A stretch of DNA of 23,173 nt from a virus. The DNA is taken from IMG/VR virus record IMGVR_UViG_3300029319_000537, positions 1-23,173 of that record; one strand, 5' to 3'. Under the pieces are notes generated by a model. The model saw only the letters and a program-made list of their open reading frames with translations. It had not been told where the DNA came from and searched no databases. The position numbers were made by a program, and so were the translations under genes. Positions 2-21,995 of this stretch are shown here, in pieces. Each line of letters starts with the position of its first letter. Positions within the stretch are counted from its first letter, which is position 1.

Positions 2-58
2 TACACAGACGAGGAGGACGAGTACGTTGACTACGGTAGACGGGGAGACTACTACTGA
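2..58 (+). CDS. C-terminal end of an upstream phage protein (partial)
   Basis: An open frame enters from the left edge and ends at TGA 56-58, overlapping the next ATG (58-60) as TGATG. The 18 visible residues are dominated by Asp, Glu and Tyr (YTDEEDEYVDYGRRGDYY), so this is a strongly acidic, probably disordered C-terminal tail. The TGATG coupling matches the gene junctions seen throughout the window, which supports it as a real gene end. In related phages the gene upstream of this block is often the large terminase, but nothing visible here proves that. Confidence 0.5.
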   Translation, partial: YTDEEDEYVDYGRRGDYY

Positions 59-801
59 TGACCGAAATAAGCGCAGAGGTCAACGCTTGGCACGGCAAAG
101 TCGATGCCATAGAGCGATGGCTTAGGCCGCTTTTTCGTCGGCACTCTCGATTGGGTGGGCCAGCCTATTTTGATATCAAGGACTTTCCTGTAGCGAAGAC
201 GCTAAGCGAAAGTCACTCTGTTATCAGGGCTGAGTTCGACAAGGCCAGAGTCCGCATGGATGATTTTCCGTTGTTTCAGGATATTAGCCCTGAGCAGGTG
301 TATATCTCCAACGACGACAAGTGGAAGATGTTTTTCTTGAAGTCAAACAACATTCGCTTTGAGAAAAACTGCGAGCAGTTTCCAGAGACAATGAAGGCCG
401 TGGATAGCGACCCAAGCATTGTTTCTGCTTATTTTTCCATACTGGATTCCAACAAGATGCTGGTGCCCCACGAGGGTCCGTGGTCTGGCGTGCTGAGAAT
501 GCACTTGGGCGTGGATATCCCAACTGATGGAGAGGGCTGTACCTTGTCCGTCAGGGGTGAGCAGTATCAATGGAAGGATGGCGAAGTCGTGGTGTTTGAT
601 GACACCTACGAGCATTTTGCAATCAACCTTACGGATCACCCTCGGGTGGTCTTGTTCATGGATTACATGCGACCGCTACCGTGGCCGCTCCATGCTCTTA
701 ACAAGTTCTGTATATACATTGGTCGATTTTTTCCGTATTACAAGGTTCCGCTTACTAGACACAAAGAGTGGGAAAAGAAGTTTTACGGGGAGGACAGCTA
801 A
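58..801 (+). CDS. Aspartyl/asparaginyl beta-hydroxylase-like Fe(II)/2-oxoglutarate oxygenase
   Basis: 247 aa. The C-terminal half matches the Asp/Asn beta-hydroxylase (AspH, PF05118) family. PHEG gives a candidate iron ligand at His138, and LRMHLG carries Arg147 and His149. FDDTYEHFAIN gives a second candidate iron ligand at His186. Arg196 in HPRVVLFMDYMRP is in the place of the 2-oxoglutarate-binding arginine. The spacing follows the family pattern, in which iron is held by two histidines. The N-terminal ~115 residues are not recognised. A hydrophobic, aromatic segment near 212-230 could contact membrane. Known members hydroxylate Asp/Asn side chains in proteins or act on lipid-linked groups; the phage substrate is unknown. 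The start at 58 overlaps the upstream stop and the stop overlaps the next start, so the gene is translationally embedded in the late operon. I am confident of the fold and have no evidence for a substrate. Confidence 0.85.
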   Translation: MTEISAEVNAWHGKVDAIERWLRPLFRRHSRLGGPAYFDIKDFPVAKTLSESHSVIRAEFDKARVRMDDFPLFQDISPEQVYISNDDKWKMFFLKSNNIRFEKNCEQFPETMKAVDSDPSIVSAYFSILDSNKMLVPHEGPWSGVLRMHLGVDIPTDGEGCTLSVRGEQYQWKDGEVVVFDDTYEHFAINLTDHPRVVLFMDYMRPLPWPLHALNKFCIYIGRFFPYYKVPLTRHKEWEKKFYGEDS

Positions 802-8488: not shown

Positions 8489-8896
8489 ATGGCTGATACA
8501 GTCACGAGCAAAACTATTGAGGACGGCCCTCGGACAGCGATTATGGCGTTTACCAATGTCAGTGATGGCACTGGTGAGTCTGCTGTTACCAAGGTGGACG
8601 TTTCGGCACTGTCCTCAGACCCAATGGGCAAGGGCGCCTGCACTGGCGTCAACATAGAGTGTATCTGGTTCTCTACTGTCGGCATGGGTGTAAAGATACT
8701 GTTTGATGCCAGCACCGACGTTCTGGCATGGGAACTGCCTGCTGATTATGCCGACACCCTAGATTTTTCTGAGTTTGTTGGTCTTGTTAACAACTCTGGC
8801 GCAGGCAAGACTGGCGATATTCTGTTCACAACAGTGGGTCACTCTTCTGGCGACTCGTACAGTATCGTTCTCAAGCTGAAGAAGAGCTACGGCTGA
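8489..8896 (+). CDS. Conserved virion protein
   Basis: 135 aa, preceded by CGGAGG. It has a compact beta-rich sequence with TAIMAFTNVSDGTGESAV, TKVDVSAL, IECIWFSTVGMGVKILFD, LAWELPADY and a GDILFTTVGHSSGDSY segment before a basic KLKKSYG end. I recall this as a widespread small protein of marine podovirus-like phages, always in the structural block. Function is not established. A head-tail or decoration protein is plausible. Its stop overlaps the first gene of the small basic gene island (TGATG). Confidence 0.78.
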   Translation: MADTVTSKTIEDGPRTAIMAFTNVSDGTGESAVTKVDVSALSSDPMGKGACTGVNIECIWFSTVGMGVKILFDASTDVLAWELPADYADTLDFSEFVGLVNNSGAGKTGDILFTTVGHSSGDSYSIVLKLKKSYG

Positions 8897-9111
8897 TGAG
8901 ACAGTATTACAAGAAGGGCGGCAAGACTAAGAAAAAGTCTAAGTCTCGCGTGAATGAGGCTGGTAATTATACAAAGCCGACCATGCGTAAGCGCCTGTTT
9001 AACAAGATAAAAGCTGGGGGAAAAGGTGGCAAGCCGGGGCAGTGGTCTGCCCGCAAGGCACAAATGCTTGCTCAACAGTACAAGAAGGCTGGTGGTGGGT
9101 ACAAAGACTGA
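8896..9111 (+). CDS. Small basic phage protein with KKGGK N-terminus
   Basis: 71 aa, ATG 8896 overlapping the upstream TGA. It begins MRQYYKKGGKTKKKSKS, almost the same leader as the gene at 9483. It continues with TMRKRLFNKIKAGGKGGKPGQW and ends in ARKAQMLAQQYKKAGGGYKD, a likely helix. Lys, Arg and Gly dominate. No known domain. The basic N-terminal half could bind nucleic acid. Overlap with both neighbours shows it is translated as part of a coupled set. Role unknown. Confidence 0.75.
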   Translation: MRQYYKKGGKTKKKSKSRVNEAGNYTKPTMRKRLFNKIKAGGKGGKPGQWSARKAQMLAQQYKKAGGGYKD

Positions 9112-9239
9112 TGGCGGAACTAACTTTGGCGCAAAAGCGCAAGATGATTGCTGAGCTGAAGAAAGCGTCGAAAACGCACGCGGCCCAAGCGGCACGGCTC
9201 GAAAAGACGCTTCCCAAGAAAAAGAAGAATGGCTCTTAA
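9111..9239 (+). CDS. Very small basic helical phage protein
   Basis: 42 aa from ATG 9111 (TGATG overlap with the previous gene). An in-frame ATG at 9042 would force a long overlap and is less likely. The first ~30 residues (LTLAQKRKMIAELKKASKTH) form a probable amphipathic helix, followed by a polylysine end (LPKKKKNGS). Its stop lies inside the next gene, whose ATG is at 9229. No function is known. It could be a DNA-condensing or capsid-lining peptide, by charge only. Confidence 0.65.
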   Translation: MAELTLAQKRKMIAELKKASKTHAAQAARLEKTLPKKKKNGS

Positions 9240-9483
9240 AAAATCGCAAAAGTCGCTCAAGAAGTGGACTAAGCAGAAGTGGCGCACAAAGTCTGGCAAG
9301 CCCAGTACTCAGGGCAAAAAAGCCACGGGTGAGCGTTATCTGCCCGAAAAGGCGATTAAGGCGCTGTCTGATAAGGAGTACGCGGCAACCAGTCGCAAAA
9401 AGCGAGCCGACACCAAAAAGGGCAAGCAACACTCCAAGCAACCCAAGAAAGTGGCCAAGAAGACGGCGAGGCACAGAAAGTAA
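9229..9483 (+). CDS. DUF5872-like lysine-rich protein
   Basis: 84 aa with about 25 lysines, overlapping the previous gene by 11 nt. The motifs KKWTKQKWRTKSGKPS, GERYLPEKAIKALSDKEYAA and a C-terminal KQPKKVAKKTA match the small DUF5872-type family as I remember it from marine phages, bacteria and large algal viruses. The conserved core is the WxxQKWRTKSGKPS and YLPEKAIKALS pair. The biochemical role is unknown; the chromatin-like composition suggests nucleic-acid binding. The next gene begins on its stop codon (TAATG). Confidence 0.8.
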   Translation: MALKKSQKSLKKWTKQKWRTKSGKPSTQGKKATGERYLPEKAIKALSDKEYAATSRKKRADTKKGKQHSKQPKKVAKKTARHRK

Positions 9484-9752
9484 TGCGTGCGTATTACAAG
9501 TCCGGCGGCAAGGTCAAGAAAAAGTCCATGTCGTGCAACAAGCCGAAGCGGACGCCGGGACACTCAAAGAAAAAGTTTGTGGTCAAGGCGTGCGAGGGTG
9601 GTAAGGAGAAGCTGATCCGTTACGGCGACAAGAACATGAAGATCAAGAAGAGCCAGCCGGGAAGACGCAAGTCCTTCCGCGCTAGGCACAAGTGTGATTC
9701 CAATCCGCCAAGCAAGCTATCTGCTCGCTACTGGTCGTGTAAAAACTGGTGA
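9483..9752 (+). CDS. Small Cys-containing basic protein with RRKSFRARHKC motif
   Basis: 89 aa. The leader MRAYYKSGGKVKKKSMS resembles the 8896 protein. The core holds KEKLIRYGDKNMKIKK, then PGRRKSFRARHKCD (60-72) and a tail ARYWSCKNW. Four cysteines (18, 37, 71, 86) and two histidines (27, 69) could bind a metal, though the spacing is not a standard zinc finger. I recall the GDxNMxI...RRKSFRARHxC...ARYWSCKxW pattern as strongly conserved in marine phages, where it is annotated hypothetical or structural. That conservation in so short a basic protein points to a specific nucleic-acid or virion contact, not mere bulk charge. Confidence 0.8.
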   Translation: MRAYYKSGGKVKKKSMSCNKPKRTPGHSKKKFVVKACEGGKEKLIRYGDKNMKIKKSQPGRRKSFRARHKCDSNPPSKLSARYWSCKNW

Positions 9753-9756
9753 TGAC

Positions 9757-9882
9757 ATGCCGATAAGCAGAGCGCAGATGGGCAAGCAGGTTAAGAATGC
9801 GCCCAAGTCGAAAAGGATAAAGGCGGCTAAGTGCAGGAATGGCTTGGCGCGTAGGGGCAGGACAAGAGGAAGGAAGGTCTAA
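9757..9882 (+). CDS. 41-aa basic protein sharing its N-terminus with the capsid protein
   Basis: 41 aa from ATG 9757, 4 nt after the upstream stop; an in-frame ATG at 9694 lies inside the previous gene and is less likely. It begins MPISRAQMGKQVKN, then becomes very basic (KSKRIKAAKCRNG, ending RRGRTRGRKV). The ISRAQM-K peptide equals that at the start of the major capsid protein (MAISRAQMLK). The tail resembles arginine-rich nucleic-acid-binding peptides. Its stop overlaps the ATG of the adaptor gene, so it is coupled to head-completion genes. A capsid-interior or DNA-binding role is an inference. Confidence 0.7.
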   Translation: MPISRAQMGKQVKNAPKSKRIKAAKCRNGLARRGRTRGRKV

Positions 9883-10577
9883 TGGCGACCAGCGGGACAA
9901 CCAACTTTACTCTTGACTTGTCAGATATTATAGAAGAGGCATATGAGCGTGCGGGCCTTGAAGCCAGAAGCGGGTACGACTTCAGGACTGCCAGACGTAG
10001 TCTCAACCTGCTTATGCTTGAGTGGCAGAACAGGGGGCTGAACCTCTGGACCGTCAAGAGCGGGACACAGGCCCTCACTGCGGGAACAGGCTCGTATGAC
10101 CTTACCGCTGAGAAGCTAGACATAATAGAGGGGCTGTTACGCACCGACGCGGGTGACACGTCCAAGCAATCTGACCTGACTATGCAAAGAATATCTGTCA
10201 GTCAGTATGCCCATCAAACAAACAAGCTGACGCAGGGGCGACCGCTACAGTACTACGTTGAGCGTAAGTCCACGGGTATCACCATACACTTCTGGCCTGT
10301 GCCCGATGACACTACAAGCTACACCTTTGCCTACTACTACATGGACCGCATTGAGGATGCCGGAAAGCCTGCGTCCAACAACATGGAGGTGCCCGAGAGG
10401 TTCCTGCCGTGCTTGGTCTCTGGGTTGGCGTATCAGATAGCCAGCAAGCGCCCAGAGTCATTGCAGTTAGCTCCGGCGCTAAAGCAGGTCTATGAGGAGC
10501 AGTGGAGTCTTGCGGCAGATGCGGCAAGAGAAAAAGCGTCCCTGTATGTTGCGCCCGGAGGCTACAGCAACATATGA
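9882..10577 (+). CDS. Head-tail adaptor / head completion protein (P22 gp4-like)
   Basis: 231 aa, with AGGAAGG before ATG 9882. The N-terminal helices (LDLSDIIEEAYERAGLEARSG, RTARRSLNLLMLEWQNRG) and later segments (QRISVSQYA, GRPLQYYVER, IHFWPVPDD, Tyr-rich) match the podovirus adaptor proteins that dock under the portal, as P22 gp4 does. The helical C-terminus (YEEQWSLAADAAREKASLYV) is also typical. Adaptors form a dodecameric ring that seals the head after packaging. A second adaptor-like protein is encoded at 11729, so the assignment of the two rings is provisional. The end overlaps the next gene by ATGA. Confidence 0.8.
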   Translation: MATSGTTNFTLDLSDIIEEAYERAGLEARSGYDFRTARRSLNLLMLEWQNRGLNLWTVKSGTQALTAGTGSYDLTAEKLDIIEGLLRTDAGDTSKQSDLTMQRISVSQYAHQTNKLTQGRPLQYYVERKSTGITIHFWPVPDDTTSYTFAYYYMDRIEDAGKPASNNMEVPERFLPCLVSGLAYQIASKRPESLQLAPALKQVYEEQWSLAADAAREKASLYVAPGGYSNI

Positions 10578-11050
10578 GTAGCTTTGCCAAGGGTAAGCAC
10601 GCATACGGATTTTGCGACAGAACTGGCTTTAGATACCCGATCCGCGATCTAGTGCGGCAAATCGAAGATGGTCGATGGAATGGCCTTCTTGTTGGGCGTG
10701 ACGTGGTTGATCAGGACCAGCCTCAGTTAAAACTGGGGGATGTCAACGCATCTGACCCGCAGGCACTGCGGTTCCCAAGACCCGATGATGCAATAGATGA
10801 AAGCCGATCCCTTTCGGCATTTGACCCTGTGGGCGGCGGAAACACCGCTTTGGGTAGCCGCACCGTTGGTCTTGACATGTCAGGTGCAGTGGGTCGCGTC
10901 ACGATTACAACGACCGCGCCAACACCAACTGTGACCGGTGCGGTTGGCACAGGCTCTGTTGGTAGCGTGAGCGTTGGTTCTACGGCTGTAAGATTTGATA
11001 GCTCTAGTGCCACGCTCGATGGCACTGGCGACACTTTTGATGAGGGTTAA
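10574..11050 (+). CDS. Virion protein with FCDRTGFRYP domain and a VTG repeat tail
   Basis: 158 aa from ATG 10574 (ATGA overlap with the adaptor gene); an upstream in-frame ATG at 10502 is unlikely. The N-terminal ~75 residues (SSFAKGKHAYGFCDRTGFRY, LVRQIEDGRWNGLLVGRDV, DPQALRFPRPDD) match a widespread marine phage module. The C-terminal part is Gly/Thr/Val/Ser-rich and contains a unit starting VTGAVGTGSVG that aligns with the 22-residue repeats of the protein at 17521. It is probably a neck or fibre-attachment protein, on position and composition. No catalytic motif is visible. Confidence 0.72.
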   Translation: MSSFAKGKHAYGFCDRTGFRYPIRDLVRQIEDGRWNGLLVGRDVVDQDQPQLKLGDVNASDPQALRFPRPDDAIDESRSLSAFDPVGGGNTALGSRTVGLDMSGAVGRVTITTTAPTPTVTGAVGTGSVGSVSVGSTAVRFDSSSATLDGTGDTFDEG

Positions 11051-12649: not shown

Positions 12650-13084
12650 ATGGCGTTTAGTGGAAACTTTATGTGCACGTCCTTCAAGAAGGAGTTGATG
12701 GAAGGTGTGCACAACTTCAAGAACTCTGGTGGTAGCACATTTAAGCTGGCCCTGTATGACAACAATGCGAGCTTCACTGCGGCAACCACTGCGTACACAA
12801 CCAGCAATGAGGTTAGTGGAACGGGTTACAGCGCCGGCGGGGGCACCCTCACAAGAGTTGACCCCAGCACATCTGGTACAACTGCTCTGACTGATTTTGC
12901 TGACCTGACGTTTAGTTCGGCGACAATTACTGCCAGAGGGGCTCTAATTTACAACGATTCAGCGTCAGGCGATCCCACGGTCGTTGTGCTTGATTTTGGT
13001 GCAGACAAGACATCCAGTGCTGGCGATTTCACCATTGTTTTCCCCACAGCGGATGCGTCTAATGCGATTATCAGGATCGCCTAA
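12650..13084 (+). CDS. Small virion protein (tail or fibre-associated)
   Basis: 144 aa, preceded by AGGAG about 8 nt upstream. It starts MAFSGNFMCTSFKKELMEG. Then it shows STFKLALYDNNASFTAATTAY, GTGYSAGGGTLTRVD and a beta-rich remainder, including a RGALIYND segment and VLDFGADK. This is a familiar small structural protein in marine phage tail blocks, usually encoded before a fibre gene, as here. Role unknown beyond probable virion location. No signal peptide; one cysteine. Confidence 0.75.
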   Translation: MAFSGNFMCTSFKKELMEGVHNFKNSGGSTFKLALYDNNASFTAATTAYTTSNEVSGTGYSAGGGTLTRVDPSTSGTTALTDFADLTFSSATITARGALIYNDSASGDPTVVVLDFGADKTSSAGDFTIVFPTADASNAIIRIA

Positions 13085-13086
13085 AC

Positions 13087-14991
13087 ATGGCTCTTGTTGT
13101 AGCTGATCGGGTCAAAGAGACCACTACAACCACAGGCACAGGTGCAATCACCCTCGCCGGGGCAGAAACAAACTTTGTTACGTTTTCCTCTGTCCTATCA
13201 AATGCGGATACGACGTATTACGCGATTGTGGACAATACAAACTCTGCGTTTGAGGTGGGGTTGGGGACATATGCCAGCTCTGGCAACACGATCACCCGGA
13301 CAACCATCATATCCAGCTCTAACAGCGACAATGTTGTTAATCTTCAGGCTGGGTCCAAAGATGTCTTTATCACCCTTCCCTCTAACAAGTTCCCGCTACT
13401 TGATGCATCTGGCAATGTAGACATTAACGGCGGCACTATTGATGGCACCACGATTGGCGGATCTTCTGCCGCCGCCGGCACGTTTACTACGTTTACCTCA
13501 AACGGCATCGACGATAATGCTTCCAGCACTTCTGTCACGGTGTCGTCTGGGGGTAAGGTAACCATTGACCCAGCAGGGTCTACGCAAGGCACTCACGAAT
13601 TAAGCGTGAGGGAGGCGGATAGTCCAAGGATTAGCATCGACGATATTAACGGCTCAGACACCGATGTTAATGCTTCACTGTTGCTTAGGGCAGGCGTGAC
13701 GAACAAGGGCGTGGTTGGTTACTCAGGATCGGATGACCTTCGCCTCGAAAACAAAACCGCCGCAGGCTCGACGATCCTTGCCACAAACGATATTGACAGG
13801 CTGACCGTTGATAGCTCTGGTAATGTGGGGATTGGCAACACAGCACCTTATGATGTTCGTGTGCACATCACTGGTGATCAAAACGATGAAGATCCTACTC
13901 TTGGCTCCCCAACTGGTGCACTAGTTGTATCAAATACAGATACGGCCTACGGCCTTCAAATGGGTGTGTCTTCCGATGGCAACGGATGGATACAGCAAGG
14001 CCGTGTAGACGGAACCGCAACTGCGTATAACTTAAACTTACAGCCAGTAGGCGGTAACGTAGGTATTGGCGTACAGGCACCAACCTCAAAACTTGAGGTC
14101 GGGATGACGAACGGCGATGTTATAACGCTAAAAGACACCAACTTGACCGCAAGCTCAAGCAATATCGGTAACGTCCGTGTTGCGTGGGATGACAGCGCAG
14201 GCACAAGAGTCGCTTATGTTGGAACGGTGAATAGCGATGAGTTTTGGATAAATAATCAGTATTCAGAAGTAGTTTTGACATATGCAGGCTCGCGTATGTT
14301 TGAGACTAGAGATTACGGCGCAAAGCTGTACGGCAAGCTGAACATTAACGATAGCGAATACGACAACCACCTAGAGTTAAATCGCTCAAGCGAGCAGTGG
14401 CGATTCAGCCCATCAACCGATGGATCGCTAGACATACGACGTATTAGCGGCACATCGACGGCCTATTTAGATGTACAAAGCCTAATGCGCGTTGCACCGA
14501 CCGACGGCTCTGTAACAATAGGCCCGCAGAACACTAGCTTTTGTCATTTCAGCACGGACAGAGCAAAGCACTATTTCAACAAGCCTGTCTACATGGATGG
14601 CGGTGCTGTCGATTACGACACGGACGATCACTTCTTACTGCCTAACGCTGATAACAGCGAATCACCAAATTTAAGCACTGCAAGAAGCGGCGGCGCGATT
14701 AACTACATCTATAACCGTGGCAGTGATGTCACGCTTACACGCGGAGACTTCGCTCATCACATCATTCAGCAGTGGAGCGGCACCGCCACATTTACGATTA
14801 CGTCATCGACGTTTTTGCGAGGCGACATTATTGAGTTTATTAACGTCAGGGGAACGGTAACAATAACTGTTGTCGGTACAAGGATTTATTTGCCAACGGG
14901 ATCGTATGACACAACGCTGACGCTTTCACAGAAAGGCAAATTCAGATTGCTTAAATACAGCACAAGTGCTGGCTATTGGATGGTGGGTTAA
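13087..14991 (+). CDS. Tail fibre protein
   Basis: 634 aa. The N-terminal ~105 residues (MALVVADRVKETTTTTGTGA through DVFITLP) are a widespread phage fibre-attachment module. A DINGGTIDGTTIGGSSAAAG unit follows (112-133), shared with the fibre-like protein at 18231. Two NVGIG-type shaft repeats follow, ending in APYDVRVHI and APTSKLEV. Fibres with these repeats commonly end in a peptidase S74 intramolecular chaperone; I see no S74-like end here. The last ~200 residues are unrelated beta-rich sequence ending GYWMVG, probably the receptor-binding part, encoded in more AT-rich DNA than the shaft. This suggests that tip and shaft have different histories. Confidence 0.85.
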   Translation: MALVVADRVKETTTTTGTGAITLAGAETNFVTFSSVLSNADTTYYAIVDNTNSAFEVGLGTYASSGNTITRTTIISSSNSDNVVNLQAGSKDVFITLPSNKFPLLDASGNVDINGGTIDGTTIGGSSAAAGTFTTFTSNGIDDNASSTSVTVSSGGKVTIDPAGSTQGTHELSVREADSPRISIDDINGSDTDVNASLLLRAGVTNKGVVGYSGSDDLRLENKTAAGSTILATNDIDRLTVDSSGNVGIGNTAPYDVRVHITGDQNDEDPTLGSPTGALVVSNTDTAYGLQMGVSSDGNGWIQQGRVDGTATAYNLNLQPVGGNVGIGVQAPTSKLEVGMTNGDVITLKDTNLTASSSNIGNVRVAWDDSAGTRVAYVGTVNSDEFWINNQYSEVVLTYAGSRMFETRDYGAKLYGKLNINDSEYDNHLELNRSSEQWRFSPSTDGSLDIRRISGTSTAYLDVQSLMRVAPTDGSVTIGPQNTSFCHFSTDRAKHYFNKPVYMDGGAVDYDTDDHFLLPNADNSESPNLSTARSGGAINYIYNRGSDVTLTRGDFAHHIIQQWSGTATFTITSSTFLRGDIIEFINVRGTVTITVVGTRIYLPTGSYDTTLTLSQKGKFRLLKYSTSAGYWMVG

Positions 14992-15837: not shown

Positions 15838-16308
15838 ATGGACCCACTCTCAATGATCGCTATGGCGTCTACCACCTTCAAGGGTATACAGACGCTCGTA
15901 AATCAAGGCGCAGAGATTGAGCGCGTAGCCCAAAAGCTAGGCTCTTGGTATAGCTATGCGGCAGACATAAAGCAGGCTGAGAAGGAGGCTGAGAGCCCCG
16001 GACTATTTAAGAAGCTGTTTGACGGGAATACCGTAGAACAGCAGGCCCTTAACAGTGTTATAGCCAAAAAAAAGCTGGAGGAGCAGGAAAAACAGATTCG
16101 TGAGCTAATAGTGTGGGCTTACGGGGTAGAAACATATCAAGAGATGATCATGTTGCGGCGCAAGATTAAGGCGCAACGTGAAGAGGCAATTTACAAGCAA
16201 CGCAAGAGAAGGCGATTTTTTCTAGACAGCGTTTTTGTTTTTGTTGGCGTGCTTGTTAGTGGTGGTATTATCTACGGAACAGTTGCGTTCATTAGGGGAG
16301 CGGCATGA
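15838..16308 (+). CDS. Tail-anchored membrane protein with coiled coil
   Basis: 156 aa. The N-terminal ~120 residues are helical and charged, with a coiled coil at ~75-92 (KKKLEEQEKQIREL) and later RRKIKAQREEAIYKQ. A basic patch KQRKRRR (120-126) precedes one TM helix at ~130-151, so the bulk should face the cytoplasm by the positive-inside rule. I recall similar MDPLS-starting proteins in marine phages; function unknown. It overlaps the lipoprotein gene by ATGA, so the two may work at the envelope together, for example in exclusion or lysis. A run of eight A residues (16066-16073) at codons 77-79 contains the A AAA AAG slippery heptamer. Confidence 0.75.
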   Translation: MDPLSMIAMASTTFKGIQTLVNQGAEIERVAQKLGSWYSYAADIKQAEKEAESPGLFKKLFDGNTVEQQALNSVIAKKKLEEQEKQIRELIVWAYGVETYQEMIMLRRKIKAQREEAIYKQRKRRRFFLDSVFVFVGVLVSGGIIYGTVAFIRGAA

Positions 16309-17138
16309 AGAAGTTATTGATTTTTGTGTTTTTTTTGTTGGCTGGGTGCACATCAACAACGACCCAGTATTATGAGGCGGTTACGGCGGCGGCAAACGCT
16401 AATGCTACCGCCTCTCAGGCTAAGTTTGACGCTTTGGCGGCGATTGCCGCTTCCGGGGACGGACAAGCGGCCAGTGCGGCTGTGATGGCCTTGGCCCTAA
16501 CACAGACACCTACAATAAACCCTGTGCCTCAAAAGTCACAGGCTTTGCAGTGGGCATCTATTTTGGCTACCCCGGTTACATCGCTCGGTATGATGTGGAT
16601 GCAGTCAGATTCTGCGAAGACAATGGCAAAGTATAATGCTGACGTGTCACTAGCAAGAGTTCAGGCGACATCGCAAAGCAACGCGGCGCTGTATGGCACC
16701 TTTGCGGATATGAATCAAGCTACTGCGAATGTGGGCATGGCTGGTTTGGATGCGGCAGGAAATGCAGATTATTCAGCGTTTATTGATGGCATGGTCACGC
16801 TTGGCACGGCTGGAATTACGGGTGCTGTAGACCTAGGCACCGCAGGTTTTGGGGCTAATGTCGATATTGCTACGGCGGGTATGACCGGCCTTGTCGATCT
16901 GGGTAACGCGGGCATTACAGGCGTTGTAGACATGGGTAATGCCGGGATTACAGGAGTGACAACCGTGTCGCTTGATGCGTTTGACACCCTGCTTAATCTA
17001 GACACTGGAAACAACTCGTTGCTTGAGGGCGTCTGGACCAACTACACAACATCAATCCAAGACATTATCGACGGGGTGCCAAGACTATGCCAGCCAATTA
17101 CGGACGCAAATGGCGTAACCACGCTCGTCTGCGAGTAA
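16305..17138 (+). CDS. Phage-encoded lipoprotein with 11-residue repeats
   Basis: 277 aa. MKKLLIFVFFLLAGC is a textbook lipoprotein signal, with lipobox LAGC giving a modified Cys15. Ala-rich helical sequence follows (~22-65, including a MALALTQ segment), then a hydrophobic ALQWASILATPVTSLG stretch. Residues 164-218 form five exact 11-residue repeats of the type VDLGNAGITGV. The C-terminus holds two cysteines (262, 276) that could form a disulphide. Lipoproteins with this Ala-rich N-terminal part are frequent in marine phages, but the role is unsettled: superinfection exclusion, outer spanin-like lysis protein and virion component are all possible. Coupled by ATGA to the TM protein upstream. 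Confidence 0.8.
   Translation: MKKLLIFVFFLLAGCTSTTTQYYEAVTAAANANATASQAKFDALAAIAASGDGQAASAAVMALALTQTPTINPVPQKSQALQWASILATPVTSLGMMWMQSDSAKTMAKYNADVSLARVQATSQSNAALYGTFADMNQATANVGMAGLDAAGNADYSAFIDGMVTLGTAGITGAVDLGTAGFGANVDIATAGMTGLVDLGNAGITGVVDMGNAGITGVTTVSLDAFDTLLNLDTGNNSLLEGVWTNYTTSIQDIIDGVPRLCQPITDANGVTTLVCE
16794..16958 (+). repeat. Five 33-bp coding repeats (11-aa units) in the lipoprotein
   Basis: Codons 164-218 of the lipoprotein break exactly into five units: VTLGTAGITGA, VDLGTAGFGAN, VDIATAGMTGL, VDLGNAGITGV and VDMGNAGITGV. Units are conserved in protein but differ in codons, so this is an old repeat rather than recent slippage. The pattern V-D-hydrophobic-x-x-A-G-hydrophobic-T-G could form a beta-solenoid turn or an 11-residue amphipathic helix. 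Confidence 0.85.
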
Positions 17139-17520: not shown

Positions 17521-18222
17521 ATGATATTTGGCGCATCAGCATTTGCGGAAACACCTTTTGCCGCTTCTGCGGGTCTAGCGCCAATAGTCGTTACTGGTCA
17601 GCAGGCAACAGGGTCTGTTGGCGCCGTAATTGTACACATACCGGTTAGCTTCTCGGTTACAGGTGTATCTGGTACGGGTCAGGTTGGCACTGTAGCGATT
17701 GATGCTGACGGTGAGGTAAACGTACAGGGTGTTGCCGGGACTGGAACGGTCGGTGATGCCACTGTAAGCACAGACGCAAATGTCCCCGTAACGGGGCTTT
17801 CGGCAACCGCATCTGTTGGGTCTGCCGTTGCAACTGGCGGCGCCACAACAAGCGTAGACGGCCTAGAAGCGACTGGTGCCGTAGGCGATGTAACCGTAAC
17901 CGGCATAGCCAATGTCTCTGTCACTGGCGTGTCAGGAACAGCGGCTGTTGGTTCTGCCATAGCCACGGGCGGTGCAAAAGCCAACGCTGTTGGACTTGGC
18001 GTTACCGGTAAGGTCGGCGTTGCCGACACATTTACTCAAACAAATGTAACCGTCACTGGCGTTTCGGCGACCGGTGTCGTTGGCTCAGCACAAGTAATCA
18101 TCTGGAACGAGATTGACCCATCTCAGGTGCCAAACTGGGTAGAGGTCACAACGTCTCAGACACCGGGATGGACTGAAGTTGTACCGTCTCAAGACCCAGA
18201 CTGGACAGACGTAGCGGCGTAG
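17521..18222 (+). CDS. Repeat-rich fibre-like virion protein (22-aa x 8)
   Basis: 233 aa. The N-terminal IFGASAFAETPFAASAG is a short module frequent in marine phages. Residues 24-199 are eight exact 22-residue units on the theme VTGVSATGxVGxAxVxxxANVx, without insertions or gaps. Residues 197-229 are three 11-residue units of the form EVxPSQxPxWT, each with one Trp, ending DVAA. Such regular Thr/Gly/Val repeats suggest a beta-solenoid or beta-prism shaft; the Trp-rich tail may be an attachment or binding point. It lies between membrane-protein genes and another fibre-like gene. No signal peptide, so virion location is more likely than export. Confidence 0.75.
   Translation: MIFGASAFAETPFAASAGLAPIVVTGQQATGSVGAVIVHIPVSFSVTGVSGTGQVGTVAIDADGEVNVQGVAGTGTVGDATVSTDANVPVTGLSATASVGSAVATGGATTSVDGLEATGAVGDVTVTGIANVSVTGVSGTAAVGSAIATGGAKANAVGLGVTGKVGVADTFTQTNVTVTGVSATGVVGSAQVIIWNEIDPSQVPNWVEVTTSQTPGWTEVVPSQDPDWTDVAA
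17590..18117 (+). repeat. Eight 66-bp coding repeats (22-aa units)
   Basis: Codons 24-199 divide into eight units of exactly 22 residues, starting at residues 24, 46, 68, 90, 112, 134, 156 and 178. Most begin VTG or V-x-G, carry TG-x-VG at positions 7-11, and end in N-V-x or similar. Units vary in sequence and codons, so the fixed period is kept by structure, not by recent duplication. Confidence 0.88.
18109..18207 (+). repeat. Three 33-bp coding repeats (11-aa Trp units)
   Basis: Residues 197-229 of the same protein read EIDPSQVPNWV, EVTTSQTPGWT and EVVPSQDPDWT, an exact period of 11 with invariant Ser-Gln, Pro and Trp. They overlap the end of the last 22-residue unit. Confidence 0.85.
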
Positions 18223-18230
18223 AGGCTCAA

Positions 18231-19205
18231 ATGACAAGCACATATACGACAAACCTAGGTATTGAAAAGATCACAACAGGTGATCAGGCAGGTACTTGGG
18301 GAAACACCACTAACACGAACTTTGACATTATTGATCAGGCTATAAACGGGATAGGGTCATCCACCCTTACCTCATCCCACACCAGCTCAGGCGGGGCCTT
18401 AGCCATTGCAATCACTGATGGCGCAGTGTCGGCAGGGCGTAACGCATTTATAGAGTTTTCTGACGGAGGGGATATTGGCGGGACAGGGTATGTCCAGCTT
18501 ACACCCAACAACGCCGAAAAGATCCTGTATGTCAGGAACAGCCTGTCGGCATCGCGCTCTGTAATTATCTTTCAGGGAACGTATAACGCATCAAATGACT
18601 TTGAACTTGCGAATGGCAAGGACGCCGTCATCAAGTTCAGCGGCGGCGGCTCTGGAGCCACAGTCACGCAAGTATTTGCTGATCTCACCGCGACCAACAT
18701 AACAGCCCCCCTCACGGGGAATGTGACGGGAAATGTGACCGGGAATGTTACAGGTGCAGTGACCGGGAATGTTACTGGTGACTTGACAGGAGCAGTGACG
18801 GGTAACGTAACCGGCAACTTGACCGGCAACGTCACCTCTACCGGCACGTCAACATTTGCGACGGTAGACATCAATGGCGGCGCAGTTGACGGAACCACTA
18901 TTGGCGCCAGCAGTGCCGCCGCAGGCACCTTCACCAATGTCACCGCAACAGGAACCGTGACGATTGCCACCGCTGACATCAATGGTGGGGCCATAGACGG
19001 AACAAATATAGGCGCAAGCACGGCAGGTACAGGTAAATTTTCTGCCCTGACCACGAGTGGTGACCACATTCTTGTCGAAACATCGCAGACGCCAGCCTCT
19101 GTTTCCGCCTCAGGAACTCAGGGTGAGATTGCGTGGGACGCAAACTACATATATGTCTGTGTCGCTAACAACACTTGGCGCCGTGCGGCAATATCTAGCT
19201 GGTAA
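18231..19205 (+). CDS. Tail fibre-like protein with GNVT repeats
   Basis: 324 aa, with AGAGG before ATG 18231. The N-terminus TYTTNLGIEKITTGDQAGTW...NTNFDIIDQAING is a common marine phage fibre module. Residues 163-202 are ten tetrapeptides of GNVT type. Residues 213-234 and 249-270 are two copies of a DINGGxxDGTxIGAS unit (36-residue period), also found in the fibre at 13087. The C-terminus SGTQGEIAWDANYIYVCVANNTWRRAAISSW is a frequent fibre ending, sometimes serving as a tip. It probably forms trimeric fibres or whiskers. It precedes the lysis cassette. Confidence 0.82.
   Translation: MTSTYTTNLGIEKITTGDQAGTWGNTTNTNFDIIDQAINGIGSSTLTSSHTSSGGALAIAITDGAVSAGRNAFIEFSDGGDIGGTGYVQLTPNNAEKILYVRNSLSASRSVIIFQGTYNASNDFELANGKDAVIKFSGGGSGATVTQVFADLTATNITAPLTGNVTGNVTGNVTGAVTGNVTGDLTGAVTGNVTGNLTGNVTSTGTSTFATVDINGGAVDGTTIGASSAAAGTFTNVTATGTVTIATADINGGAIDGTNIGASTAGTGKFSALTTSGDHILVETSQTPASVSASGTQGEIAWDANYIYVCVANNTWRRAAISSW
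18717..18836 (+). repeat. Ten 12-bp coding repeats (GNVT tetrapeptides)
   Basis: Codons 163-202 encode GNVT (x6), GAVT (x2), GDLT and GNLT in a row. The DNA units vary at third positions but keep a GGNAAYGTNAC theme, so slippage or recombination could change the length. Such G-N-V-T tracts are typical flexible or spiral shafts in phage fibres. Confidence 0.85.
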
Positions 19206-20156: not shown

Positions 20157-21995
20157 GTGCCGCTATCTAAGATCGCATTTGCTCCGGGTATAGACAAGGA
20201 GGGTACCCAGTACACCGCTGACTCCGGGTGGTTTGACTCAGACAAGATACGTTTCCGAAAGGGTAGGGTTGAGAGTATTGGTGGCTGGGCCAAGTATGTT
20301 GAGACTACGATAAAGGGGGTTTGCCGCTCTCTTTTTGACTGGGGTGCCGCCTCAGGTGATAAATACTTGGGCATTGGCACCAACCTAAAATTCTATATAG
20401 AGAACGGCGGGAGCATTTTTGATGTTACGCCACTCAGGCTGACAACTGCGGCAGGGGATGCCACGTTTAGCGCAAGCAATGGCTCATCTACCATCACTGT
20501 TACTGAAGCGGGCCATGGTGCCGTAGAGAATGATTTCGTTACGTTTTCTGGTGCGGTCTCTCTGGGCGGCAACATTACGGCGGCAGTGCTCAACAAAGAG
20601 CACCAAATTGTTAGTGTCACTGACGCAAACACATACACATTCACAGCAACCGCTACGGCTAACTCGTCAGACACAGGCGATGGCGGCTCGTCAACGGTTG
20701 CAAAATATCAGATAAACACCGGCACCAACTTCTATATCGACAGCACGGGCTGGGGTGTAGGAGGCTGGGGTGAGTCTGCTTGGGGGGAGGCTGTTGATAT
20801 CACAGTCACAAACCAGCTAAGACTGTTTAGTCAGGACGCTTTTGGGGATGACCTGATATTTAACGCCAGAGGTGGTGGTGTTTTCTTCTGGGACGAAAGT
20901 GGCGGCACAGGAGCGAGAGCTGTAAGCCTAGGTGATCTTGTTGGCGCATCAAACACGCCAACTGCGGCTCTCCAAGTCATGGTGTCGGACATTGACCGAC
21001 ATGTGATTTGTTTTGGTTCAAACCCTATAGGTGGCACAACGCTAGATCCGCTTTTGGTTCGGTGGTCAGATCAGGAGAATGCGGCAAACTGGACCCCAAC
21101 AGCAACAAACAGTGCCGGTGGTCAGGTGCTTTCTACGGGCACAGAGATTGTCGGGGCGGTAAAAACAAGGCAGGAAATACTGATCTTTACTGACGAAGGC
21201 ATACAGTCGATGCGATTTGTCGGGGCGCCATTTATCTACTCATTTACACCGGTGGCGGAGAATGTGAGCATGATCTCGCCAAATGCGGCGATTGCGGCGG
21301 CAGACTCGGTCTTCTTTATGGACCGAGAGGGCTTCTATGTTTATCGCGGCTCAGTTCAGAGACTACCGTGCTCTGTTCTCGATCATGTTTTTAATGGCGT
21401 CCAGTTTGACCAGAGGCACAAGATATTCGCTCTCAGTAATCCTGACGATTCAGAGGTAACGTGGTTTTACCCTGTTGGTGACCCGAGCGCAGATGTAACC
21501 AATTACGTCACGTTTAATTATCAGGAAAACAACTGGTCTATTGGCACTCTGGATCGCGGAGCGTATATACACGCACCAACAAAAGAGTACCCGATTGCGG
21601 CAAGCAATGACTTGGTCAATCTAGACACAAACTACTTGTATATACATGAGTTTGGTCATGACGCAGACGGCGAGCCCTTGAATGCATTCGTAGAGTCGGG
21701 CGGCATCGGCATAGCAGACGGCGATCAGTTTGTGCATGTTAGTCGCATTGTGCCGGACTTTACGTTCCGGGGAGCGCAAAGCAGTGCTGACATCACGATT
21801 ACGCTGAAGGGCAGGGACTTTCCGTTGTCCACGGAGACAACATTGTCAACGTCAAGCGTGTCAAACACCACAGGTCAGGCGTTTGTCAGAGCCAGAACCA
21901 GAGAGATGCTGGTCAGAGTTGAGTCTGGCGGCACCGGCTATGGCTGGACCTTGGGTGATCTCAGGTTTGATATTAGAACGGACGGAAGACGTTAA
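20157..21995 (+). CDS. P22 gp10-like tail hub / DNA stabilisation protein
   Basis: 612 aa from GTG 20157, with GAGGTG 6 nt upstream. It begins LSKIAFAPGIDKEGTQYTA, then WFDSDKIRFRKGRVESIGGW (25-44), the standard start of P22 gp10-like and podovirus nozzle proteins. A beta-rich body follows, with blocks such as VRWSDQENAANWTPT, EILIFTDEGIQSMRF and FFMDREGFYVYRG, consistent with a beta-propeller. Residues ~100-183 look like an inserted Thr/Ser/Gly-rich domain, partly explaining the length compared with P22 gp10 (about 470 aa). A GWGVGGWGESAWGEA loop (~198-211) is typical of this family in marine phages. It should form the hexameric hub under the adaptor, closing the DNA channel. Confidence 0.85.
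   Translation: MPLSKIAFAPGIDKEGTQYTADSGWFDSDKIRFRKGRVESIGGWAKYVETTIKGVCRSLFDWGAASGDKYLGIGTNLKFYIENGGSIFDVTPLRLTTAAGDATFSASNGSSTITVTEAGHGAVENDFVTFSGAVSLGGNITAAVLNKEHQIVSVTDANTYTFTATATANSSDTGDGGSSTVAKYQINTGTNFYIDSTGWGVGGWGESAWGEAVDITVTNQLRLFSQDAFGDDLIFNARGGGVFFWDESGGTGARAVSLGDLVGASNTPTAALQVMVSDIDRHVICFGSNPIGGTTLDPLLVRWSDQENAANWTPTATNSAGGQVLSTGTEIVGAVKTRQEILIFTDEGIQSMRFVGAPFIYSFTPVAENVSMISPNAAIAAADSVFFMDREGFYVYRGSVQRLPCSVLDHVFNGVQFDQRHKIFALSNPDDSEVTWFYPVGDPSADVTNYVTFNYQENNWSIGTLDRGAYIHAPTKEYPIAASNDLVNLDTNYLYIHEFGHDADGEPLNAFVESGGIGIADGDQFVHVSRIVPDFTFRGAQSSADITITLKGRDFPLSTETTLSTSSVSNTTGQAFVRARTREMLVRVESGGTGYGWTLGDLRFDIRTDGRR

Follow-up and report, generated by a model that had tools for sequence, protein, structure and literature searches.

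The virus record IMGVR_UViG_3300029319_000537 of IMG/VR contains, within the 23,173-nt stretch analyzed here in full (hereafter, the window), a gene for a 233-aa protein composed of short repeated units and flanked by tail genes. The question raised by this locus is what such a protein does in the virus and how far the regularity of its units reflects a structure. A preliminary description, made from the sequence alone, took the eight indel-free units to imply a fixed structural period, such as that of a beta-solenoid coil, and suggested an undescribed phage shaft or whisker. The repeat itself, its variation among relatives, its predicted fold and its gene neighborhood are considered in turn. 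The features referred to are listed in Table 1.

Table 1. Features of the repeat gene and of the surrounding structural genes in the window
Feature	Position	Strand	Basis or remark
Repeat gene, whole, 233 aa	17521..18222	+	ORF list; dN/dS; 52 IMG/VR relatives in first scan
N-terminal aromatic motif MIFGASAFAETPFA and short linker	17521..17586	+	Alignment of relatives
Eight 22-residue units, aa 23-198, consensus xVTGxxATGxVGxVxVxxxANV	17587..18114	+	Autocorrelation, unit alignment
C-terminal Trp repeats, period 11 (W195, W206, W217, W228), end WTDVAA	18103..18219	+	
Tail-fibre gene, fibre B	18231..19205	+	Starts 9 nt after repeat gene
phrog_644-like protein, 144 aa (12650)	12650..13084	+	Directly upstream of repeat gene in most relatives
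Second fibre gene, fibre A	13087..14991	+	Between 12650 gene and repeat gene here
P22-gp10-like packaged-DNA stabilisation (tail hub) protein	20157..21995	+	phrog_3287 virion structural protein, E 3.8e-67
Second, short VTG-repeat gene with TGAVGTGSVGSVSV motifs	10502..11050	+	Adjoins adaptor gene

When the protein was cut at aa 23, it fell into eight back-to-back blocks of 22 aa reaching aa 198, with zero indels. Identity autocorrelation of this core was highest at lag 44 (0.447), followed by lags 66 and 22 (0.364 each). All three values exceeded the maximum of 0.281 obtained over lags 5–69 in 2000 composition-preserving shuffles, and a chance origin of the repeat was therefore rejected. The units were as diverged as had been claimed: identity between them averaged 39% (23–68%) at the protein level and 48% (maximum 67%) at the DNA level. 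A 44-residue (132-nt) super-period, absent from the preliminary description, was stronger than the 22-residue period, with units 4, 6 and 8 in register. Because lag 44 was the strongest and the register was 132 nt, the units appear to have arisen, or the array to have grown, at least partly in pairs. The four C-terminal Trp residues were spaced exactly 11 apart, giving three 11-residue steps, and because W195 sits within unit 8, the unit array and the Trp repeat overlap. Both the indel-free array of eight units and the three Trp repeats were thus exactly as first described; the limits given for them together, 17590–18207, were a few codons off.

Compared with the closely related gene at locus L001 (98% protein identity), the repeat gene showed 26 codons with single-base differences, a dN of 0.010 and a dS of 0.116 (ratio approximately 0.09); the ratio was 0.07–0.30 in five other close pairs of relatives. 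A ratio of approximately 0.09 indicates that the frame is coding and under purifying selection at the protein level. An antisense ORF (17679–18029, minus strand) was set aside, being taken as a reflection of the codon usage on the coding strand.

Relatives were found at 52 loci in the first IMG/VR scan, and a second query gave 95 confirmed matches, the best 80 of which were listed. No Pfam, PHROG or NCBIfam model matched the window protein or the scanned relatives at the curated cut-off, which agrees with the earlier remark that there is no recognized receptor domain; the receptor-binding, enzymatic or chaperone domains expected of a tail fibre or tailspike were not found with these three libraries. 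The repeat protein had no match among PDB sequences, and no cellular relative turned up when 84,980 genomes of bacteria and archaea were scanned twice. Among annotated phage records, tblastn found only DSL-LC04, HTVC023P, ct7L0027 and, weakly, CRP-345. A search of open-access journal papers returned no description of the family. On the basis of these searches, the family is widespread among viruses and has no name in Pfam, PHROGs or NCBIfam.

A three-part architecture was common to the relatives: an aromatic N-terminal motif, VTGxxATGxVGxVxV units and Trp/Tyr repeats. The number of detected units ranged from 2 to 48 (median 8) in 101 nonredundant genes preceding a fibre gene, a set in which one gene (L036, 322 aa) probably encodes a Gly-rich protein outside the family. 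The N-terminus was one of two types, FGxxxFAxxPFA or GWGxGxWGxxxWG, which were interchangeable in the family; when 101 relatives were classified by rule, 55 were W-type, 37 were F-type and 9 were not caught. All 101 relatives had Trp/Tyr pairs spaced 9–13 residues apart within their final 60 aa, and the period-11 repeats mostly ended in WxEIAA. Both ends were kept even in the 103-aa versions with approximately one unit (L279 and L281). CRP-345 gp55 belongs to a small group apart, in which the C-terminus is different and has a KRRTV-like motif.

Two relatives were unusual in other respects. The protein of L042:3577-7263 is a giant of 1229 aa, with an array of approximately 50 units that vary in length. 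Several further copies of the N-terminal FSDSPFS motif occur within this array, which gives the impression of a tandem fusion of whole genes. At L032:1-2535, the array ends in a globular domain of approximately 110 aa and not in Trp repeats; this domain is tail-terminator-like by eye only. Two apparent likenesses outside the family were discarded: Paenibacillus tape-measure proteins matched the Trp repeats alone (35%, E approximately 0.004), which was taken as composition-driven, and the MJing1 "tail repeat like protein" has a different repeat.

The preliminary description had proposed looking for other proteins with 22-residue VTGxxxTGxVG units. The family was indeed there, and its unit length varied. 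Among 562 scored unit steps, drawn from 57 nonredundant ORFs of which some are probably outside the family, the most frequent length was 22 residues (332 steps), followed by 20 (103), 21 (28), 18 (26) and 24 (23), with 50 steps of other lengths; units of 18–25 residues occurred. Some relatives had 20-residue units, others had mixtures of 18, 20, 21, 22 and 24, and one protein had approximately 50 units of mixed length. Homologues with irregular unit lengths, which had been named in advance as counting against a fixed period, therefore exist in the literal sense. A fixed period held for the window protein and its nearest relatives and failed across the family. The idea that lengths shift in steps of two, in a hairpin-like manner, was prompted by an apparent dominance of 18, 20, 22 and 24; it was dropped because even and odd lengths were about equally frequent (61 vs. 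66) once 20 and 22 were removed.

A weaker form of the fixed-period idea survives in the alignments, in which the core is constant in length and close relatives differ by whole units. The ten-residue core TGVEATGAVG did not vary in length, positions 11–22 absorbed the length change, and the glycines at positions 2 and 10 were near-invariant. Among the 52 pairs that were at least 90% identical, 50 aligned without any internal gap; each of the other two had one gap, which measured 24 aa (one unit) in one pair and 66 aa (three units) in the other. In the L015/L017 pair there were two gaps of 66 aa each, again whole units. Whole-unit length change is what would be expected of a unit that acts as the building block of the structure, in a protein whose overall length can change freely during evolution. 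Positional correspondence of units was clear only in a close pair. For the distant relatives L006, L022, L009 and L002, diagonal and off-diagonal identity were equal, and L019 showed a slight positional excess (0.35 vs. 0.31).

Structure prediction from an ordinary alignment was poor for the full-length protein (AlphaFold2, pLDDT 49), and this first model was not interpreted. In a second run, aa 23–198 were modeled from 26 eight-unit rows aligned in register; this resulted in an all-beta model with two strands per unit (pLDDT 70.1, pTM 0.68), a right-handed beta-solenoid of moderate confidence, in line with the fold first suggested. Foldseek gave no match at E 0.001 or better against the PDB for either model or against a viral-structure library for the second. 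When the Foldseek list was re-ranked by VIA-align, the best structural neighbors were HxuA (Z 14.5, rmsd 2.0, 152 aligned) and the secretion domains of filamentous haemagglutinin (FHA; Z 14.5, rmsd 2.3, 158 aligned), followed by other solenoids, including the phage HK620 tailspike (Z 10.7). The likeness is that of the predicted model and lies in repeated coils and inward hydrophobic positions. These beta-helix proteins differ from the repeat protein, which has no sequence match in the PDB and no catalytic or receptor domain; an 11-residue Trp/Tyr end and an aromatic N-terminus are not known as features of HxuA, FHA or the HK620 tailspike.

In a study of such predictions, AlphaFold2 is described as over-predicting beta-solenoids, with confident but unrealistic models for near-perfect repeats, and models of diverged natural repeats as agreeing between methods and being more reliable (PMC11795689). 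The sequence tally bears on the same point. Among the 332 units of 22 residues, positions 9, 14 and 20 were hydrophobic in 92–94% and positions 3, 5, 12 and 18 in 79–85%; charge fell mostly at positions 4, 11 and 17, with the highest frequencies at 17 (50%) and 4 (34%). Hydrophobicity thus has the coil periodicity of a beta-helix, as counted from sequence positions and not from inward-facing residues of the model. Independently of the model, the coil reading fits this hydrophobic/polar alternation and the near-invariant glycines. The repeat domain is likely to be a right-handed beta-solenoid with one coil per unit, as predicted by the in-register model.

A flexible chain of Val, Thr, Gly and Ala, disordered for the most part and keeping the aromatic end motifs apart as a spacer, would also account for the low full-length pLDDT, the simple V, G, A, T and S composition and the tolerance of unit lengths of 18–25. 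It is quite unlikely, since the strict hydrophobic alternation, the near-invariant glycines at positions 2 and 10, the purifying selection and the restriction of length changes to whole units in close pairs are all hard to explain for a disordered chain.

Gene order placed the repeat gene inside the virion structural module across the relatives. The usual order was adaptor (9882), 11729, 12370, 12650, repeat gene and fibre. With the N-terminus of fibre B as bait, the directly upstream gene contained at least four units at 73 of the 78 new loci listed; of the remaining five, two had 2–3 anchors, and two of the other three were short versions with the same architecture. The 12650 protein as bait gave 68 listed loci with at least 400 nt downstream (twelve more ended too soon), and the next gene was a repeat gene by rule in 56 of them, including one (L205) that on inspection was a fibre gene with repeats; four other loci had a repeat gene further on, and eight had none in the available DNA. 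The bait listings represent the best 80 of approximately 590 confirmed matches, with near relatives sampled and not de-duplicated. Starting from the repeat gene, an automatic rule labeled a fibre gene as following at 31 of 54 loci, and by-eye reading of the 21 rows classed as "other" raised this to 44 of 54. At L034 and L076, the next gene was unreadable but matched fibre genes in the neighborhood comparison. Eight of the 54 loci were not followed by a fibre gene, and two of these (L041 and L093) were wrong ORF picks.

Fibre B has an N-terminal GTWGNTTNTN anchor and approximately ten four-residue TGNV-type repeats in mid-protein. Its C-terminus is mosaic, with matches of the last 46–66 aa to cyanophage virion structural proteins and to Klebsiella phage tail proteins. 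It belongs with the tail fibres starting MASTYTTNxGIExxATGEQSGTWGxTTNTN, which are encoded by the adjacent gene and are presumably part of the same virion substructure. The repeat protein differs from these fibres in being encoded by a separate gene and in having no GTWG anchor domain. Between the 12650 gene and the repeat gene, the window has fibre A along with a number of small genes; in the group with 20-residue units, fibre A comes directly after the repeat gene.

The ORF at 16305–17138 (plus strand) encodes a lipoprotein-like product that starts with MKKLLIFVFFLLAGC and has its own repeats of approximately 12 residues (AGITGAVDLGTAGFGANVDIATAGMTGLVDLGNAGITG); its matches were weak only (phrog_6073, Rz-like spanin, E 0.19; NF045606, E 0.0076, below the cut-off). 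Elsewhere on the plus strand, several small and very Lys/Gly-rich ORFs were found in close proximity, at 8896–9111, 9229–9483, 9483–9752, 9694–9882 and 1450–1779 (e.g., KTKGYFKGGKTKGYSKGGK), the products of which are possibly DNA- or capsid-binding. The product of the ORF at 58–801 (plus strand) resembles, by eye, a 2OG enzyme of the aspartyl/asparaginyl beta-hydroxylase-like kind; the tail regions of DSL-LC04 and HTVC023P also have annotated 2OG oxygenases.

The P22-gp10-like hub gene was present in 15 of 15 large records, chosen for length from the 52 loci of the first scan, and in 8 of 14 further records, the six misses all being fragments of 11–21 kb. Its homologues are annotated as "stabilization protein" in DSL-LC04 and others. 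P22 gp26, a trimeric coiled coil, docks on the gp10 hub, and the repeat protein could be an analogous tail needle or plug whose length is set by the repeat number. A gp10-like hub gene in the tail module and a single elongated component are what such a needle would call for, and none was recognized among the window proteins scanned, in a search that was not exhaustive and in a window that is a fragment. A needle is nevertheless unlikely, given that the repeat gene adjoins the fibre gene and not the hub gene and that its model is an all-beta solenoid, unlike gp26.

The repeat module has also been placed elsewhere in the structural region. The cultured Roseobacter phage CRP-901 has no repeat gene between its 12650 homologue and its fibre gene; instead, VTG units are fused to the protein beside the adaptor (gp53, approximately ten VTG units, ending in WGNNAWGNGTWGNGL), which by eye is related in its N-terminal domain to the product of the second VTG-repeat gene of the window. 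Because the units of CRP-901 lie beside the adaptor instead, the module appears to be mobile within the structural region. These adaptor-side genes, together with the structural-gene neighborhood as a whole, would suit a whisker on the head or collar, a decoration fibre separate from the tail fibre. The most tightly conserved partner of the repeat gene is the tail-fibre gene, however, which makes such a whisker very unlikely.

The same direct coupling with the fibre gene would be expected if the product were not in the virion at all, acting as an assembly factor for the neighboring fibre or being exposed on the infected cell. The gene for a fibre chaperone usually follows that for the fibre, such chaperones are not known to be repeat proteins that vary in length, and no signal peptide was seen by eye at the N-terminus; a non-virion protein is accordingly very improbable.

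Similar genes in named phages had the same position. In the Pelagibacter phage HTVC023P, gp68 (QGZ17697.1) combines an N-terminus of the LG...PIA type with VTG units of 22 residues and a period-11 Trp tail, and its gene lies directly before a GTWG-type tail gene (by eye); its identity with family members is only 33–37% (tblastn). HTVC027P gp68 (QGZ17849.1) and URG13121.1 of phage 023Pt_psg01 are, by eye, versions that have degenerated or are shorter, and the gene immediately following is a tail gene of the GTWG or GLWG type. All three proteins are annotated as "hypothetical protein." In DSL-LC04, WJZ48131.1 has VTG units and three Trp repeats like the window protein, and differs in that several GWGxGxWG motifs interrupt its repeats. 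The gene order is shared: adaptor, 12650 homologue, repeat, GTWG protein, holin, M15 peptidase and stabilisation protein. DSL-LC04 is an assembly from a lake-water metagenome, not an isolate (PMC10611076). For phages with the repeat gene, no proteomic or microscopic evidence on virion location was found in the literature.

Taking the three-part architecture, the units, their whole-unit length change, the purifying selection and the gene pairing as support at the sequence level, we hold with moderate confidence that the protein is a virion component associated with the tail of a short-tailed marine phage, an extendable beta-solenoid stalk with the fibre as its likely partner. An extendable stalk beside the tail fibre is probable because relatives at the same tail-gene position vary from two to dozens of copies of the unit. 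Phage tails are already known to include shafts and spikes with a beta-solenoid fold. The shaft or whisker first proposed for the virion is plausible. We infer that the protein is present in the virion, contacts the fibre and functions as a spacer. In such a stalk, the aromatic N-terminal motif and the 11-residue Trp/Tyr repeat would be the two ends, attaching to tail proteins or capping the solenoid; the units of approximately 22 residues would stack as one right-handed coil each, their variable number giving the length; and fibre B would be the likely partner at the tail. Length would evolve through gain or loss of whole coils, and the stalk could therefore set the reach of the receptor-binding part from the tail hub.

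Phages of the HTVC023P type are counted among the most abundant ocean phages in two sources (PMC9599517, PMC10149686). Their host-contacting proteins are mostly annotated as "hypothetical protein." In the related contigs that were examined, the repeat gene was almost always adjacent to the tail-fibre gene, and it is missing from three family libraries. Because the cultured SAR11 phages HTVC023P and HTVC027P carry divergent versions, its role is testable now, and the number of coils is a simple natural variable that could be compared with host range or with the length of the appendage. More tentatively, this virus-only family may provide abundant marine podophages that have a P22-type hub, among them the HTVC023P group of SAR11 phages, with a fibre-paired, extendable beta-solenoid stalk; its aromatic ends would remain unchanged, and the gain or loss of whole coils would serve as a genetic ruler for how far the receptor-binding part reaches.
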